A DNA stretch of 64,000 bases from Carboxydocella thermautotrophica (lineage in GTDB: Bacteria > Bacillota > GCA-003054495 > Carboxydocellales > Carboxydocellaceae). Location: the NCBI GenBank assembly GCA_003054495.1, contig CP028514.1, positions 2,496,001-2,560,000 of the forward strand. Direction: 5' to 3'. The notes under the pieces were generated by a model. It made no database searches. It was not told where the DNA came from and saw only the letters and a list, made by a program, of their open reading frames with translations. The stretch's first letter is position 1. Every line of letters starts with the position of its first letter. The translations under genes and the position numbers were made by a program. Of this stretch, positions 18,321-30,376 are shown piece after piece.

Positions 18321-18414
18321 CACAATTCGGCAGCCTGGCAGTCATAGCGCTTATACGCCTTAGACCCATGGCTTTGCGCCCCCGGCTTTCACCGGGTTTG
18401 CCTTTATCGTTGTG
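18321..18414 (-). promoter_or_regulatory. c-di-GMP-I (GEMM) riboswitch aptamer upstream of flp1
   Basis: The minus-strand RNA shows the GEMM-I landmarks in order: GGCAAACC, a P2 hairpin capped by a GAAA tetraloop (CCGGTGAAAGCCGG), GGGCGCAAAGCC, the tetraloop-receptor-like GGGTCTAAGG, a variable P3 stem, then GCCAGGCTGCCGAA. P1 is CACAA with TTGTG. It lies 115 bases upstream of the flp1 ATG. Two diguanylate cyclases with intact GGEEF are encoded about 10 kb downstream on the same strand. Confidence 0.93.
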
Positions 18415-23321: not shown

Positions 23322-23915
23322 ATGTACAGCCAAAAAACCTTACTCTGGCTTTTACTGCTTAGCTTTTTCCTCATACCGTGGATTTTCCTGTTTCAGCCAG
23401 ATACTGCAGCAACTAACCCCGTTGGCCCACCCCAGCAGCTCTTGCGTTTGCACGTTATCGCCAATAGCGATCAGACTGCCGACCAGGCAGTTAAGCTGAA
23501 AGTCCGTGATGCCATCCTGGCCTATCTTACTCCTCGCCTGGTCAGGGCCACCAGCCTGGAGCAGGCTCAGGCCATCGTCATAGCAGCTGAGCCCGAAATT
23601 ATCAGGATTGCCAATCAAACCCTGGCAGCGCAACAATTTCCTTATCAGGCCCGGGTGGAAATCGGCCGTTTCCCTTTTCCCAGCAAGAGCTACGGAACTT
23701 TCAATCTACCGGCCGGCCGCTATCTGGCTCTCCGGGTTTTGTTAGGACAGGCCCAGGGTAAAAACTGGTGGTGTGTGCTCTTCCCTCCTTTGTGTTTTGT
23801 TGATCTCAGTCATAGTATTGCCGAAAACCCCTCTCCTCCACCCCGTTTGCGTTCCCGCATCCTGGAATGGTGGCAGGAAAGGCAGAAAAATCATCCCCTG
23901 GCCCGCATGAGCTAG
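23322..23915 (+). CDS. spoIIR: stage II sporulation protein R
   Basis: 197 residues. A signal or anchor segment (LLLLSFFLIPWIFLFQ) precedes the SpoIIR signature LRLHVIANSDQTADQAVKLK and VRDAILAYLTPRL. SpoIIR is made in the forespore under sigma-F and signals across the septum to activate SpoIIGA, which processes pro-sigma-E. Its presence marks the organism as endospore-forming or of recent spore-forming ancestry. AGGAGGAAAAAAT precedes the ATG. The gene is convergent with the selenoprotein gene and overlaps its stop region by 4 bases. Confidence 0.92.
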   Translation: MYSQKTLLWLLLLSFFLIPWIFLFQPDTAATNPVGPPQQLLRLHVIANSDQTADQAVKLKVRDAILAYLTPRLVRATSLEQAQAIVIAAEPEIIRIANQTLAAQQFPYQARVEIGRFPFPSKSYGTFNLPAGRYLALRVLLGQAQGKNWWCVLFPPLCFVDLSHSIAENPSPPPRLRSRILEWWQERQKNHPLARMS

Positions 23916-23929
23916 GGGATGATTTTCTT
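23885..23929. terminator. bidirectional terminator inside the overlapping 3' ends of spoIIR and the selenoprotein gene
   Basis: AAAATCATCCCCT pairs with AGGGGATGATTTT across a 13-base loop, with an A-run on one side and TTTTCTTT on the other. Both stop codons lie inside it, so the terminator also encodes the last residues of each protein. Confidence 0.78.
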
Positions 23930-24367
23930 TACATACTCTTCCATTTGAGCCTGACTCTGGGCCCCCACTACTGAAGCAACTACCTGTTGCTGACTATTGA
24001 TGAAGAAAAAGGCTGGAATAGCACTGACCCCAAACTGGGCTGCCAGCTGCTGCCCCTGCGGGTCATCCACATTGACAATCAGGAATTCCACCTGACCTGC
24101 ATATTTGTTCTGCAGAGCCAAAACCACGGGCTCCATCTGTTTGCAAGCCGGTCACCAGTTGGCATGAAATTTGATCACCATCGGCCGTTTTTCCTTGTAC
24201 CAGCGTTCATAGGTCTGCAGCGGATTAGAAGTTACCTGAAAGGCTGTCAGTTTCTGCTTTTCAACCGGCTTTTGCCCGCCGATACTAAACCAGTCTTCCA
24301 GGTAAGCAATACTGCCGATGATGGCTACCAGCACGATCACCAGGGCCAGCCAGCGTTCCTTGTTCAT
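23912..24367 (-). CDS. membrane-anchored thioredoxin-like selenoprotein with in-frame UGA (Sec)
   Basis: The frame runs 24367 to 23912 with a single in-frame TGA at 24154-24152. With Sec there, the protein is 151 residues. Residues 6-24 form a membrane helix. The active site reads FHANW-Sec-PACKQMEPV, where ordinary thioredoxins have WCPxC or WCxxC. The rest of the fold is present: FLIVNVDDPQ, and the cis-Pro segment FGVSAIPAFFFI. The upstream and downstream parts are in one frame, so there is no frameshift. Downstream of the UGA, GGCTT and GAGCC can form a small stem, a possible bacterial SECIS. It should act outside the membrane as a thiol-disulfide enzyme. If Sec is not inserted, only a 71-residue stub is made. 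Confidence 0.87.
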
Positions 24368-24469
24368 GCCTTGCCCTCCCTTCCTTGAACTAATTTCATT
24401 TTAACCTGAAACTGTTACGAAATTGTGTCCAGGGAGGGGTAATAGTCCAAAAATAGTCTACTTAATAGT

Positions 24470-26686: not shown

Positions 26687-28705
26687 CTATTTTTTTATAG
26701 TCCATTTTGTCGAAACATCGTTGTGTGCATTGGTGTATACAGTATTTTTCCTGGCGATTGTTCCCCTGTAATATGTTCCTTTTTCTGATGTCCAGCCTTT
26801 CTTGCTGGCAATCATCTGAATGGATTTTTTCTCCCCTGCGACCAGGCTGACAACTTGCTGGGCAGTTAGCCCTTCCTTGCGGGCCGTAACATTATATACC
26901 CCTGGTGCCAGCTTGCCGAGACTGAAATAACCTTTCTCATTGGTACGCAATCTGGTGGTGCCAACATAAACCACCGCCTCTTCCAGGGGCGCAAGGCTGG
27001 CTGACATCACCTGACCACTCAACTGGGCCCATTCCAGTACCGTAAACCCGCGGGCATTACTGATTACGCCGTTCTTCACCACTGTAAGCTGGTAACTCCC
27101 AGGGGGCAAGGACGGAATTGTGATCTGGATATTGTTCTCATTCCAGCTGGTGACCGCAGCCAGAGTGCTGCCAATCTGCACCTGACCCGGCCCGGTTCCA
27201 AAGCCAGCCCCACTGATTGTAACTGTATCGCCAGCGTAACTCTGTTCAGGTTCTATTTGTAGCACTACCGGTGTAGCATTTGGTGCAATCGCCTCAGCCA
27301 GGGATGAAGCCAGACCCCCAGCATGGCATTTGCCACAATCCGCCGCCAGCTTATGTCCGACCTGGCCATGCAACAATTCTGACCGATGACAGGCCTGACA
27401 GCGCCGGATGGCCCATTTATCCTTGATTTCGTGGCAAAGGTTGCAGTTTTCCAGACCAGTACCATGGTGGTTTTGCCCTGGCCCGGGATAAGGATGGCAT
27501 TGTTCACAACTGCGTAAACCCGGTATCATGGCCGTATTCTCCACAATGGTCCCATTACTGTTAATATCCCAGTCCTGCACCAGTGCCGGCAAGTGGCAGG
27601 CTGTACACTGACCGCTCAAAGCTTCATTTCTCCGGTGATGGGGACTGCTGGCATGACACTGCTGGCACTTCCTTACCACTTCTACCTGTCCCGGTGCCGT
27701 CAGCAAATGACAGGCAGAACAATCCCGCTGATCAGCTGCTGCCGCCAGATGATGACGGTCCGCAGTGGAGGTACCATGACAGTTCCGGCACTCTTCTTCC
27801 CCTACTTCTTCATAAGTTTTATCCGGCATCCCATGTATTTCCGGCCGGGTTGCTACCGCAGGCGCAAGGATAGTAATATTGAGCTGATTGCTGCTGCCAT
27901 TGCTGTTAACTACTGTTACCGGATAATTGCCGGCATTGAGATCAGGCAGGCGGATTTGCAAATAGTTATTCGACCACTGTAAGAGTTCTGCCTTTAGTGG
28001 CCCTATTTGTACCCAGCCTGAACCACCAAAACCGGTTCCATTCAGGCTTAGAATTGCTCCAGGACTGGCTTCGGTAGCGCTTATTTGCACCAAAACCGGC
28101 CGGGGCTGGGGCAATTCCGGGTCCGGCAGCGATGTGCCACTACCATGACACTGGTTGCATTCCCCACCGTGCAGGAGATGCAGCTTGCTGGACTGATGGC
28201 AGGAAAGACAGCGACTTACTGATATGCCCCCGGAATTGCTGCTGTGGCACCAGGAACACTGCTGTAATCCCTCCTCATGGTGTAAAGAAGTCAACCCTTC
28301 TGTATGACACAGCCGGCATTTATTGATATCCGCATCAGTGACTGCTGTTGTTGCTAACCCATAGTCATCTACCACATCCCCGTAATGACAGGCAGTGCAT
28401 TGACCCAACTGGGCTTCCTGAGTCAGATGGTGACTGTCTTTCACATGGCAGATTTTGCAATCACTGACTGCGGTTATTTTCCCCTCCTGAGACTGGTGAC
28501 AGTAATCACAGGTAACTACCAGTGCTTTCAAGCTCAAATGATGCCGGTTCTGCGTAGTACTGCCGTGACAACTGCGGCAGTCCATTTCTGTGAGTGCACC
28601 ATAGGTACGATCCGGAAAGCCCAGCTGCTGGGTAGTTTGGGCCCAGGCTTGTCCGGTTAGAAGAAATAAAATTAAGGTACATAAAAATAAAATTGCTCTT
28701 TTCAT
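26687..28705 (-). CDS. secreted 16-heme c-type cytochrome with IPT/TIG domains
   Basis: 672 residues. A signal peptide spans about 1-22 (ending GQAWA). Sixteen CxxCH motifs fall in two blocks of eight: C43-H187 and C306-H461. Each block is followed by an IPT/TIG immunoglobulin-like domain (about 203-282 and 478-557), and a carboxypeptidase-regulatory-like beta domain ends the protein (about 562-632). Motif spacings in the two blocks are nearly equal (23,17,20,27,20,16,17 and 23,18,20,33,21,15,21), and HH pairs recur at matching places as probable distal ligands. No membrane anchor or sortase motif is seen. It should carry electrons outside the membrane. It follows the 8-heme gene after a terminator. 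Confidence 0.93.
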   Translation of the reverse strand: MKRAILFLCTLILFLLTGQAWAQTTQQLGFPDRTYGALTEMDCRSCHGSTTQNRHHLSLKALVVTCDYCHQSQEGKITAVSDCKICHVKDSHHLTQEAQLGQCTACHYGDVVDDYGLATTAVTDADINKCRLCHTEGLTSLHHEEGLQQCSWCHSSNSGGISVSRCLSCHQSSKLHLLHGGECNQCHGSGTSLPDPELPQPRPVLVQISATEASPGAILSLNGTGFGGSGWVQIGPLKAELLQWSNNYLQIRLPDLNAGNYPVTVVNSNGSSNQLNITILAPAVATRPEIHGMPDKTYEEVGEEECRNCHGTSTADRHHLAAAADQRDCSACHLLTAPGQVEVVRKCQQCHASSPHHRRNEALSGQCTACHLPALVQDWDINSNGTIVENTAMIPGLRSCEQCHPYPGPGQNHHGTGLENCNLCHEIKDKWAIRRCQACHRSELLHGQVGHKLAADCGKCHAGGLASSLAEAIAPNATPVVLQIEPEQSYAGDTVTISGAGFGTGPGQVQIGSTLAAVTSWNENNIQITIPSLPPGSYQLTVVKNGVISNARGFTVLEWAQLSGQVMSASLAPLEEAVVYVGTTRLRTNEKGYFSLGKLAPGVYNVTARKEGLTAQQVVSLVAGEKKSIQMIASKKGWTSEKGTYYRGTIARKNTVYTNAHNDVSTKWTIKK

Positions 28706-28775: not shown

Positions 28776-30305
28776 TTAGTAAACCTTGAAAGTCTTTTCT
28801 GCGGTTACGCCACCAAAAGTTTTAATTTTTACTTTGTGATATCCTACTGTAAGCCCAGCGGGTACCTTGAACTGAATTTTTGTAGAACTCCAGAAGGTAG
28901 CCGGTACAGGCACCCCGTCAACCAGGATCTGGCTGGCACCCTGTTGCGCCCCAAAATTGTAACCAATAGCGGATATTGTCCAACCGACTTTAGCGGTAGT
29001 AGGACTGATCGAACCCAGATAAGGCACACCCCAGACATTCAATATATTGGTACCACCTATAGCCCCGGAAGCTTCTCCGGCCGGGCTGGATACCCTCACA
29101 CTGTAGGAACCAGGACTCAAGGTAGTCGGTACAGTGAACTTGATGGTGTTATTGTCCACTACCGTAAATTCTACCGGTATCTGAGTAGCACCATAGCTCA
29201 GCTTGACACTGTCCACTGCCGGAACCAGGAAGTTCTTACCGGTGATAGTCACCTCACCACCGGCTTTGTACACTACATCTGCTGGAGCGATGTTATTGAT
29301 TTGCGGACGGGCCCAAACAGTAAAGACCCGATACTGCGGACTTTCACCTTTCATGTTTACCAGACGCACATTATACTTGCCTGAGTTAACCATGGGCACA
29401 GTAAAGACTACCTGGTTATCAGTCCAGTAGTCAATCGGAGCCTCAGCATTTCCAAACATTACTTTGGAATAACCTTTAATAAATTCACCAAAGTTGGTAC
29501 CGGTTACAGTTACCTTGGCCAGTATCGGTCCTTCATAAATATCAAAACTGTCGATAGTAGGCACAGCAACTGGCTGGGGCGGAGCCATTTCGGCAATCAA
29601 ATTGGAATGGCACCCCTGACATCTTTCCACCAGCATGTTACCAGTTTCATCAACAGTGTGGCCTTTAATGGTGTGCAAAGTGCCGATATCATGGCACTGC
29701 TCACAATCCCGCACGGGGGCGCTGACATTGCCGAAATGACACTTGGCACAATCTATACCCGCATTAGCTACATAATGGTGAGTACTATTTTCACTCGGGT
29801 CATCTACCGGGCCAGGCTTGAAGATCGGTTTGGGTAAATCAGCCGAAGCATTGGTAGCATGGCAATTCCGGCAATCAGCAATGGCCGGAGTGATTAAGGA
29901 TGCATCATAAGTAGGCAGTGGTTTGGAACCAAAGTCACTAACTACATTAGGATCGTGACAAGCAGTACACCGGCCCTCAATCGCATCTACGGTCTTGTGG
30001 TGAGGGCTTTCGGTGTGACAGGTTGTACATTCCCGGGGCACCGGCTGGATGGTGCCATTTTCAAACCCGTGACAGCGATAACAATTACCTTCGATTTTAA
30101 CGAAGTCAATACTATGGTGGCGATCGGCCAGGTTGGAGCCGTGACACTGTTCACAATCAGGACGGCTCAAAAACTCCCAGGTGGTATCATACAAACCTTC
30201 ATTCTGCGGCACATAAGGCATAGTAAAGGCCGCAGCCAAGGCCGTGCCACTGCCAATGACCAGCAGCAATGCGGTCATCAGCAAAAGAATCCACCCTTTT
30301 CTCAT
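28776..30305 (-). CDS. secreted 8-heme c-type cytochrome with three IPT/TIG domains
   Basis: 509 residues. A signal peptide covers about 1-25 (LLLMTALLLVIGSGTALAA). Eight CxxCH motifs lie at residues 51-233 with spacing 24,18,20,32,41,15,28, closely matching the two blocks of the neighbouring 16-heme protein. The rest is three IPT/TIG domains (about 245-335, 338-420, 425-509). HH pairs at 63, 102 and 177 are likely axial ligands. The start at 30305 follows GGAGGAGC; an upstream in-frame start has no signal peptide at the right place. It probably passes electrons to or from a surface partner. Confidence 0.93.
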   Translation of the reverse strand: MRKGWILLLMTALLLVIGSGTALAAAFTMPYVPQNEGLYDTTWEFLSRPDCEQCHGSNLADRHHSIDFVKIEGNCYRCHGFENGTIQPVPRECTTCHTESPHHKTVDAIEGRCTACHDPNVVSDFGSKPLPTYDASLITPAIADCRNCHATNASADLPKPIFKPGPVDDPSENSTHHYVANAGIDCAKCHFGNVSAPVRDCEQCHDIGTLHTIKGHTVDETGNMLVERCQGCHSNLIAEMAPPQPVAVPTIDSFDIYEGPILAKVTVTGTNFGEFIKGYSKVMFGNAEAPIDYWTDNQVVFTVPMVNSGKYNVRLVNMKGESPQYRVFTVWARPQINNIAPADVVYKAGGEVTITGKNFLVPAVDSVKLSYGATQIPVEFTVVDNNTIKFTVPTTLSPGSYSVRVSSPAGEASGAIGGTNILNVWGVPYLGSISPTTAKVGWTISAIGYNFGAQQGASQILVDGVPVPATFWSSTKIQFKVPAGLTVGYHKVKIKTFGGVTAEKTFKVY

Positions 30306-30376
30306 CCGCGCTCCTCCTTTCAAAACTTTAAAACTCCGGTTTATGCAATCAATCACTTCCCTCTATTCACCTCCTT

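Follow-up and report, generated by a model that had tools for sequence, protein, structure and literature searches.

A candidate selenocysteine-containing, membrane-anchored thioredoxin of Carboxydocella thermautotrophica from a family linked to CcdA-type electron transporters

A stretch of 64,000 nucleotides of Carboxydocella thermautotrophica DNA, hereafter the window, carries a thioredoxin-like reading frame broken by one stop codon, which raises the questions of whether that codon is read as selenocysteine (Sec) and what the product would do. Direct reading of the minus-strand frame 24367-23912 gave 151 codons with a single internal stop, a TGA at 24154-24152, and the translation MNKERWLALVIVLVAIIGSIAYLEDWF...MVIKFHANW-TGA-PACKQMEPVVLALQNKY...VSAIPAFFFINSQQQ...KKIIP-TAG. 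The product begins MNKERW, and the immediate surroundings of the TGA read FHANW-TGA-PACKQMEP. An earlier note, made from the window alone, had given exactly this frame, these coordinates and this motif, with the stop at the first redox-active Cys. The gene (23912..24367, minus strand) opens with an ATG preceded at 6 nt by a Shine-Dalgarno-like GGGAGGG (24374..24380, minus strand; direct reading) and closes with a TAG, and the TGA is codon 72, at the first active-site position of W-U-P-A-C (24152..24154, minus strand). A terminator-like hairpin followed by a U run lies over the TAG (23888..23925, minus strand); its folding energy of -24.2 kcal/mol was equalled by none of 200 shuffled sequences (z -4.9), which suggests that transcription is meant to stop after the TAG rather than at the UGA. 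Upstream on the same strand lies a gene of the isocitrate/isopropylmalate dehydrogenase family (PF00180; 24470..25501), and on the other side a convergent plus-strand spoIIR (PF09551; 23322..23915) overlaps the end of the gene by 4 nt. Elsewhere in the window, a c-di-GMP-I riboswitch was detected at 18326-18412 on the minus strand (Rfam RF01051, 93 bits).

With Cys placed at the TGA, the product matched the Pfam Thioredoxin domain PF00085 (E 2.1e-20; 73.1 bits against a gathering cut-off of 23.5), and the TGA coincided with the first redox Cys of that domain. Position 72, the resolving Cys75 (codon 24143..24145, minus strand) and the cis-Pro118 of the thioredoxin fold (codon 24014..24016, minus strand) were invariant columns in an alignment of 32 family sequences. 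AlphaFold2 returned a thioredoxin fold with a mean pLDDT of 92.5 and a helix at residues 3-29 ahead of the domain, and the closest solved structures to the model were thioredoxins. Thus score, redox pair, cis-Pro and fold all place the product in PF00085. The predicted helix corresponds to an N-terminal membrane anchor (24281..24361, minus strand), and a hydrophobic N-terminal segment is found in family members generally; the thioredoxin domain is expected from this model to lie on the outer side of the membrane. More specific NCBIfam models did not claim the protein, which scored below the cut-offs for the TrxA equivalog TIGR01068 (69.1 vs 96.8), ResA NF002854 (51.8 vs 170) and StoA NF041202 (35.2 vs 210). 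The named selenoprotein models were rejected as identities: scores were 30.8 vs 805 for TsoB (NF045694), 16.1 vs 52 for TsoX and 18.7 vs 300 for Trx7/PDZ, SaoT matched weakly in only 3 of 11 family members, and no cut-off was reached.

The TGA is a shared character of the relatives. When 61 genomes were searched with the protein, homologs were recovered whose best matches each had one TGA; on reading, it fell at the same codon, where it was kept in homologs of 26-47% identity. In a second strain of the species the gene differs by one synonymous base and retains the TGA. A profile search sampled 300 genomes of the phylum and recovered the family in 46 of them, with one in-frame TGA in 33 of its 51 matches. 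We read 38 family loci in full: 30 have TGA at the codon and eight have TGT or TGC (L105, L108, L112, L117, L120, L125, L129 and L130), the resolving Cys following three residues on in every case. Cys also stands at the UGA position in the form from Acetoanaerobium noterae (L143), so that the alignment to Cys homologs proposed in the earlier note gave Cys in all eight of the non-TGA loci and in this additional one. On a maximum-likelihood tree the family formed a clade apart from cytosolic TrxA with support of 100/100, and the Sec/Cys state changed at least four times within it. One Sec form (UPSC; L124:5003-5440), whose hairpin differs in sequence, sits among Cys forms on the tree and is a possible Cys-to-Sec reversal. 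SelB was found in all 45 of the family-bearing genomes checked, including those with Cys forms.

The genome of Carboxydocella contains the whole decoding set that the earlier note had named for checking, selA, selB, selC and selD. SelA was identified by TIGR00474 at 620 bits (L008), with selB (389 bits, cut-off 242) adjoining it; SelD scored 399 bits and has an in-frame TGA of its own (ACAGUAAK), and a tRNA-Sec with anticodon TCA (UCA) was found at 69.7 bits by Infernal and ARAGORN. About 25 kb outside the window, a PrxQ/BCP-type peroxiredoxin gene with an in-frame TGA at TPGU was observed (genome C1:2470633-2471037, minus strand; L140:1432-1920). Since SelD and PrxQ each contain such a TGA, the genome likely codes for at least two selenoproteins besides the one described here. 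A genome-wide reassignment of UGA to Trp or another residue, for which no support was found, was rejected on the Cys alignment, and its likelihood is negligible given Cys at the position in all Cys homologs, the tRNA-Sec(UCA) with a complete sel set, and neighbouring genes that are full-length family members under table 11.

Bacterial SECIS elements (bSECIS) are recognised as a hairpin directly after the UGA with a G among the first two bases of the loop. In the window the hairpin was placed at 24114..24134 on the minus strand, as GGAGCC-CGTGGTTTT-GGCTCT with six pairs. Also written as GAGCC-N9-GGCTC, it lies 17 nt after the UGA, and the apical loop CGTGGTTTT begins 23 nt after it. The placement rests on covariation in an alignment of 25 Sec homologs, gap-free from the TGA (consensus ATGGAGCCCGTGGTGCTGGCTCTG): in columns 21-26/36-41, 94.0% of cells were paired, compared with 26-53% when the partners were slid by 1-3 columns, and the covariation score exceeded that of all 500 shuffles, with double-sided changes at two pairs. 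The same shape recurs with other sequences in ATCCCGC-GGT-GCGGGAT (L071), GAGCCTGT-GGT-ACAGGCTC (L073) and GCACC-GGT-GGTGC (L066). Both the hairpin after the UGA and the early loop G are present at the level of the family. Relative to codon-synonymous shuffles, 30 Sec forms were more stable (mean z -1.8; combined p 1e-14, a value that ignores kinship) and eight Cys forms less so (mean z -0.8), the difference between Sec and Cys giving p 0.02. The Carboxydocella hairpin taken by itself was not significant against synonymous shuffles (z -0.9, p 0.19); folding of its 51-nt stretch favours a different pairing, GGCTT/GAGCC, as the structure of lowest energy. This stem, which the earlier note had proposed as the SECIS, does occur here, but in the 25 Sec homologs only 59% of its cells were paired, with no covariation above shuffles; judged from these alignments it is a local coincidence. 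Since it is not kept in relatives, the SECIS was assigned to 24134-24114, where that GAGCC pairs, in the conserved hairpin, with a GGCTC further downstream. A folded RNA after the UGA was therefore borne out, with a changed partner and with significance only across the family.

A single sequence would not suffice to exclude that the TGA is an assembly error or a nonsense mutation of TGT or TGC in a decaying gene, as it lies one base from both Cys codons. The comparison with relatives refutes this reading. The TGA occupies the same codon in the second strain and in 30 or more loci spread over many families, and the hairpin after it is conserved. In four relatives, identity 3' of the TGA (residues 73-151) was 42/79, 39/79, 39/79 and 32/79, and 5' of it (residues 41-71), in the same order, 14/31, 9/29, 11/31 and 13/31. 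On these counts the part after the TGA is conserved about as well as the part before it or better, the opposite of what decay would be expected to leave. We therefore consider a pseudogene or an assembly error extremely improbable; the earlier note had already stated that chance decay would not favour such a frame. Together, the conservation of the TGA, the sel genes, the Cys homologs and the family hairpin uphold its main reading, that the gene encodes a selenoprotein, in which SelB and tRNA-Sec would decode the UGA as Sec under the direction of the hairpin 17 nt downstream.

What such a protein might do is indicated by its genomic partner. A CcdA-type electron transporter (CcdA/DsbD-type, PF02683) is encoded immediately downstream in 26 of the 38 loci and is a C-terminal fusion partner of the thioredoxin domain in four more (L094, L104, L116 and L118), giving a link in 30 of the 38. 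All eight Cys forms are linked to CcdA, and ccdA is adjacent to the Cys form of Acetoanaerobium noterae as well. Adjacency and fusion strongly indicate a CcdA link for the family, and they point to a reductase of extracytoplasmic disulfides. The one CcdA of Carboxydocella is only about 29-33% identical to the linked CcdAs, and its gene lies apart from the Sec-thioredoxin gene; ccdA is not adjacent in a few relatives either. We infer that this lone CcdA serves the Sec-thioredoxin. In the class to which Carboxydocella belongs, a thioredoxin-CcdA fusion stands beside spoIIR in one family, while the thioredoxin is there by itself in a further family and in Carboxydocella (L093, L094, L113); the ancestral gene may thus have been fused to or next to ccdA, with later loss of the CcdA part. 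Separately, in three loci of one family (L104, L116 and L127) the Sec-thioredoxin/CcdA genes were seen by eye to stand beside ArsR-like and ACR3-like transporter genes, which hints at an arsenic-related use.

With the anchor, the thioredoxin fold and CcdA in 30/38 loci in its favour, the suggestion of an extracytoplasmic Sec-dependent thiol oxidoreductase made in the earlier note gains support, and we put at roughly 85% the probability that the gene encodes a selenoprotein acting as an extracytoplasmic disulfide reductase, a membrane-anchored thioredoxin with a U-P-A-C active site. In the proposed mechanism, electrons would pass from the cytoplasmic thioredoxin pool through the CcdA/DsbD-type membrane protein to the anchored thioredoxin domain, which would reduce disulfides outside the membrane and keep thiols reduced there.

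Position beside spoIIR might suggest a sporulation role like that of StoA in Bacillus, namely disulfide reduction in the forespore intermembrane space. In three families of the class, that of Carboxydocella and two others (L093, L094, L113), the gene converges with a neighbouring spoIIR, and the StoA profile gave a weak match. That match is far below the cut-off, however (35 vs 210 bits), and spoIIR lies on the opposite strand, is convergent and is absent from the neighbours in the rest of the family loci; we regard a sporulation role as improbable. The earlier note had called the setting beside spoIIR unusual: the adjacency is real, but it is local to the class, and most relatives lie next to ccdA or are fused with it.

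A more substantial question is which proteins the selenoprotein would reduce. For Carboxydocella thermautotrophica, a thermophile that oxidises CO, 30 genes for multihaem cytochromes are reported (PMC6085454). Two multihaem cytochromes with IPT/TIG domains, of 16 and 8 CxxCH motifs, are encoded in the window at 26687-28705 and 28776-30356 (minus strand); counted upstream from the Sec-thioredoxin gene, which is on the same strand, they are genes three and four. The genome encodes CcsB and ResB (System II) beside large multihaem cytochromes. At C1:1666000-1700000 (L138, L139), several ResB/CcsA-like pairs are interleaved with cytochromes of 16, 26 and 37 CxxCH, as if the maturation genes had multiplied along with their cytochromes. 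System II needs a reductant, ResA/CcsX. No ResA/TlpA-type protein was found in the Carboxydocella genome, where the ResA profile matched only the Sec peroxiredoxin, the Sec-thioredoxin and TrxA. The only other PF00085 proteins found there were the cytosolic TrxA and a thioredoxin-thioredoxin reductase fusion, the Sec-thioredoxin being the only membrane-anchored member. In the fusion, a single frame of 433 codons carries a CPPC thioredoxin domain together with a flavoprotein resembling thioredoxin reductase (L145; genome C1:1024615, plus strand). With no ResA detected, the sole membrane-anchored PF00085 protein is the only candidate found for the System II reductant. Its main substrates in Carboxydocella would then most likely be the CxxCH cysteines of multihaem cytochromes before haem attachment, and we tentatively propose, at somewhat less than even odds, that the Sec-thioredoxin is the apocytochrome c reductant of this organism, in the role of ResA/CcsX.

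The main competitor accepts a genuine selenoprotein and sees in it a general extracytoplasmic reductant rather than a cytochrome c maturation factor, with secreted or surface thiol proteins, repair enzymes of the MsrA/peroxiredoxin type, or arsenic and metal detoxification as candidate targets; its chances are close to even. Association of the family with ResB, examined to probe the cytochrome role, is moderate only: ResB was found in 21 of 46 genomes with the family and 59 of 254 others (odds ratio 2.8, p 0.003, ignoring kinship). At the threshold used it was absent from 25 of the 46 family-positive genomes, so that cytochrome c maturation cannot be what the family does in general, and its role must be wider. 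The neighbours beside ccdA also vary by lineage, comprising, as judged by eye, GerMN and amidase genes, RnfG-like genes, and permease/ArsR-like genes. A precedent comes from pneumococcal Etrx1 and Etrx2, surface thioredoxin-fold proteins with MsrAB2 as redox partner (PMC3914529). On the other hand, cytochromes abound in Carboxydocella and no other ResA-like protein was found there, which speaks for the maturation role in this organism.

Membrane-tethered, extracytoplasmic thioredoxin-fold reductants supplied by CcdA are known in ResA and StoA of Bacillus and in Etrx1/Etrx2 of Streptococcus pneumoniae, all of which have CxxC active sites and fall in the AhpC-TSA/TlpA branch. The Sec-thioredoxin resembles them in fold and in predicted tethering and location, but it is a PF00085 protein with Sec and scores well short of the ResA and StoA cut-offs of NCBIfam. 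Like DsbD and TsoB (rhodanese/DsbD fusion-like), four relatives combine a CcdA/DsbD-type membrane domain with a thioredoxin domain in one protein; in these the thioredoxin domain comes first, the transmembrane domain follows and Sec is in the thioredoxin part, and the DsbD and TsoB models were far below cut-off. Among selenoproteins, Sec-thioredoxins with UxxC in PF00085 are an established bacterial family (PMC1794560 Table 1; PMC13188914 table), and the protein shares with those listed the Sec at the first active-site position, the resolving Cys and a bSECIS inside the coding region. Compared by description, the present protein stands out by its N-terminal anchor, by CcdA as the genomic partner of its family and by a clade apart from cytosolic TrxA, to which listed sequences, for example that of Carboxydothermus hydrogenoformans, may nonetheless belong. 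A UxxC thiol:disulfide interchange selenoprotein of PF13098 is also on record (PMC13188914, PMC1794560), likewise a thiol:disulfide oxidoreductase of thioredoxin fold; on domain scores alone, PF00085 fits the present protein better (73 vs 50 bits). In the open-access literature searched we found no description of a CcdA-partnered, membrane-anchored Sec-thioredoxin subfamily, and no model in NCBIfam of June 2026 claims it. Sec-thioredoxins are thus known, and the anchored subfamily that pairs with CcdA and has Sec more often than Cys is apparently undescribed.

Routine gene prediction truncates such genes at the UGA or places their start behind it, and so the family, which occurs in about 15% of the genomes sampled from the phylum, may be largely misannotated. 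It also constitutes a natural experiment, in which Sec and Cys have been exchanged repeatedly, always in SelB genomes, and the hairpin goes with Sec. It is doubtful, though conceivable, that the Sec-dominated anchored thioredoxins and CcdA form a selenium-dependent transmembrane reducing chain broadly distributed in anaerobic Bacillota, one that replaces ResA for the approximately thirty cytochromes of Carboxydocella. Should the CcdA partnership hold, selenium would become part of the route by which electrons reach the outer face of the membrane and, by that route, perhaps also of c-type cytochrome assembly in metal-reducing and CO-oxidising thermophiles. If the replacement of ResA holds as well, extracellular electron transfer in Carboxydocella would depend on selenium.
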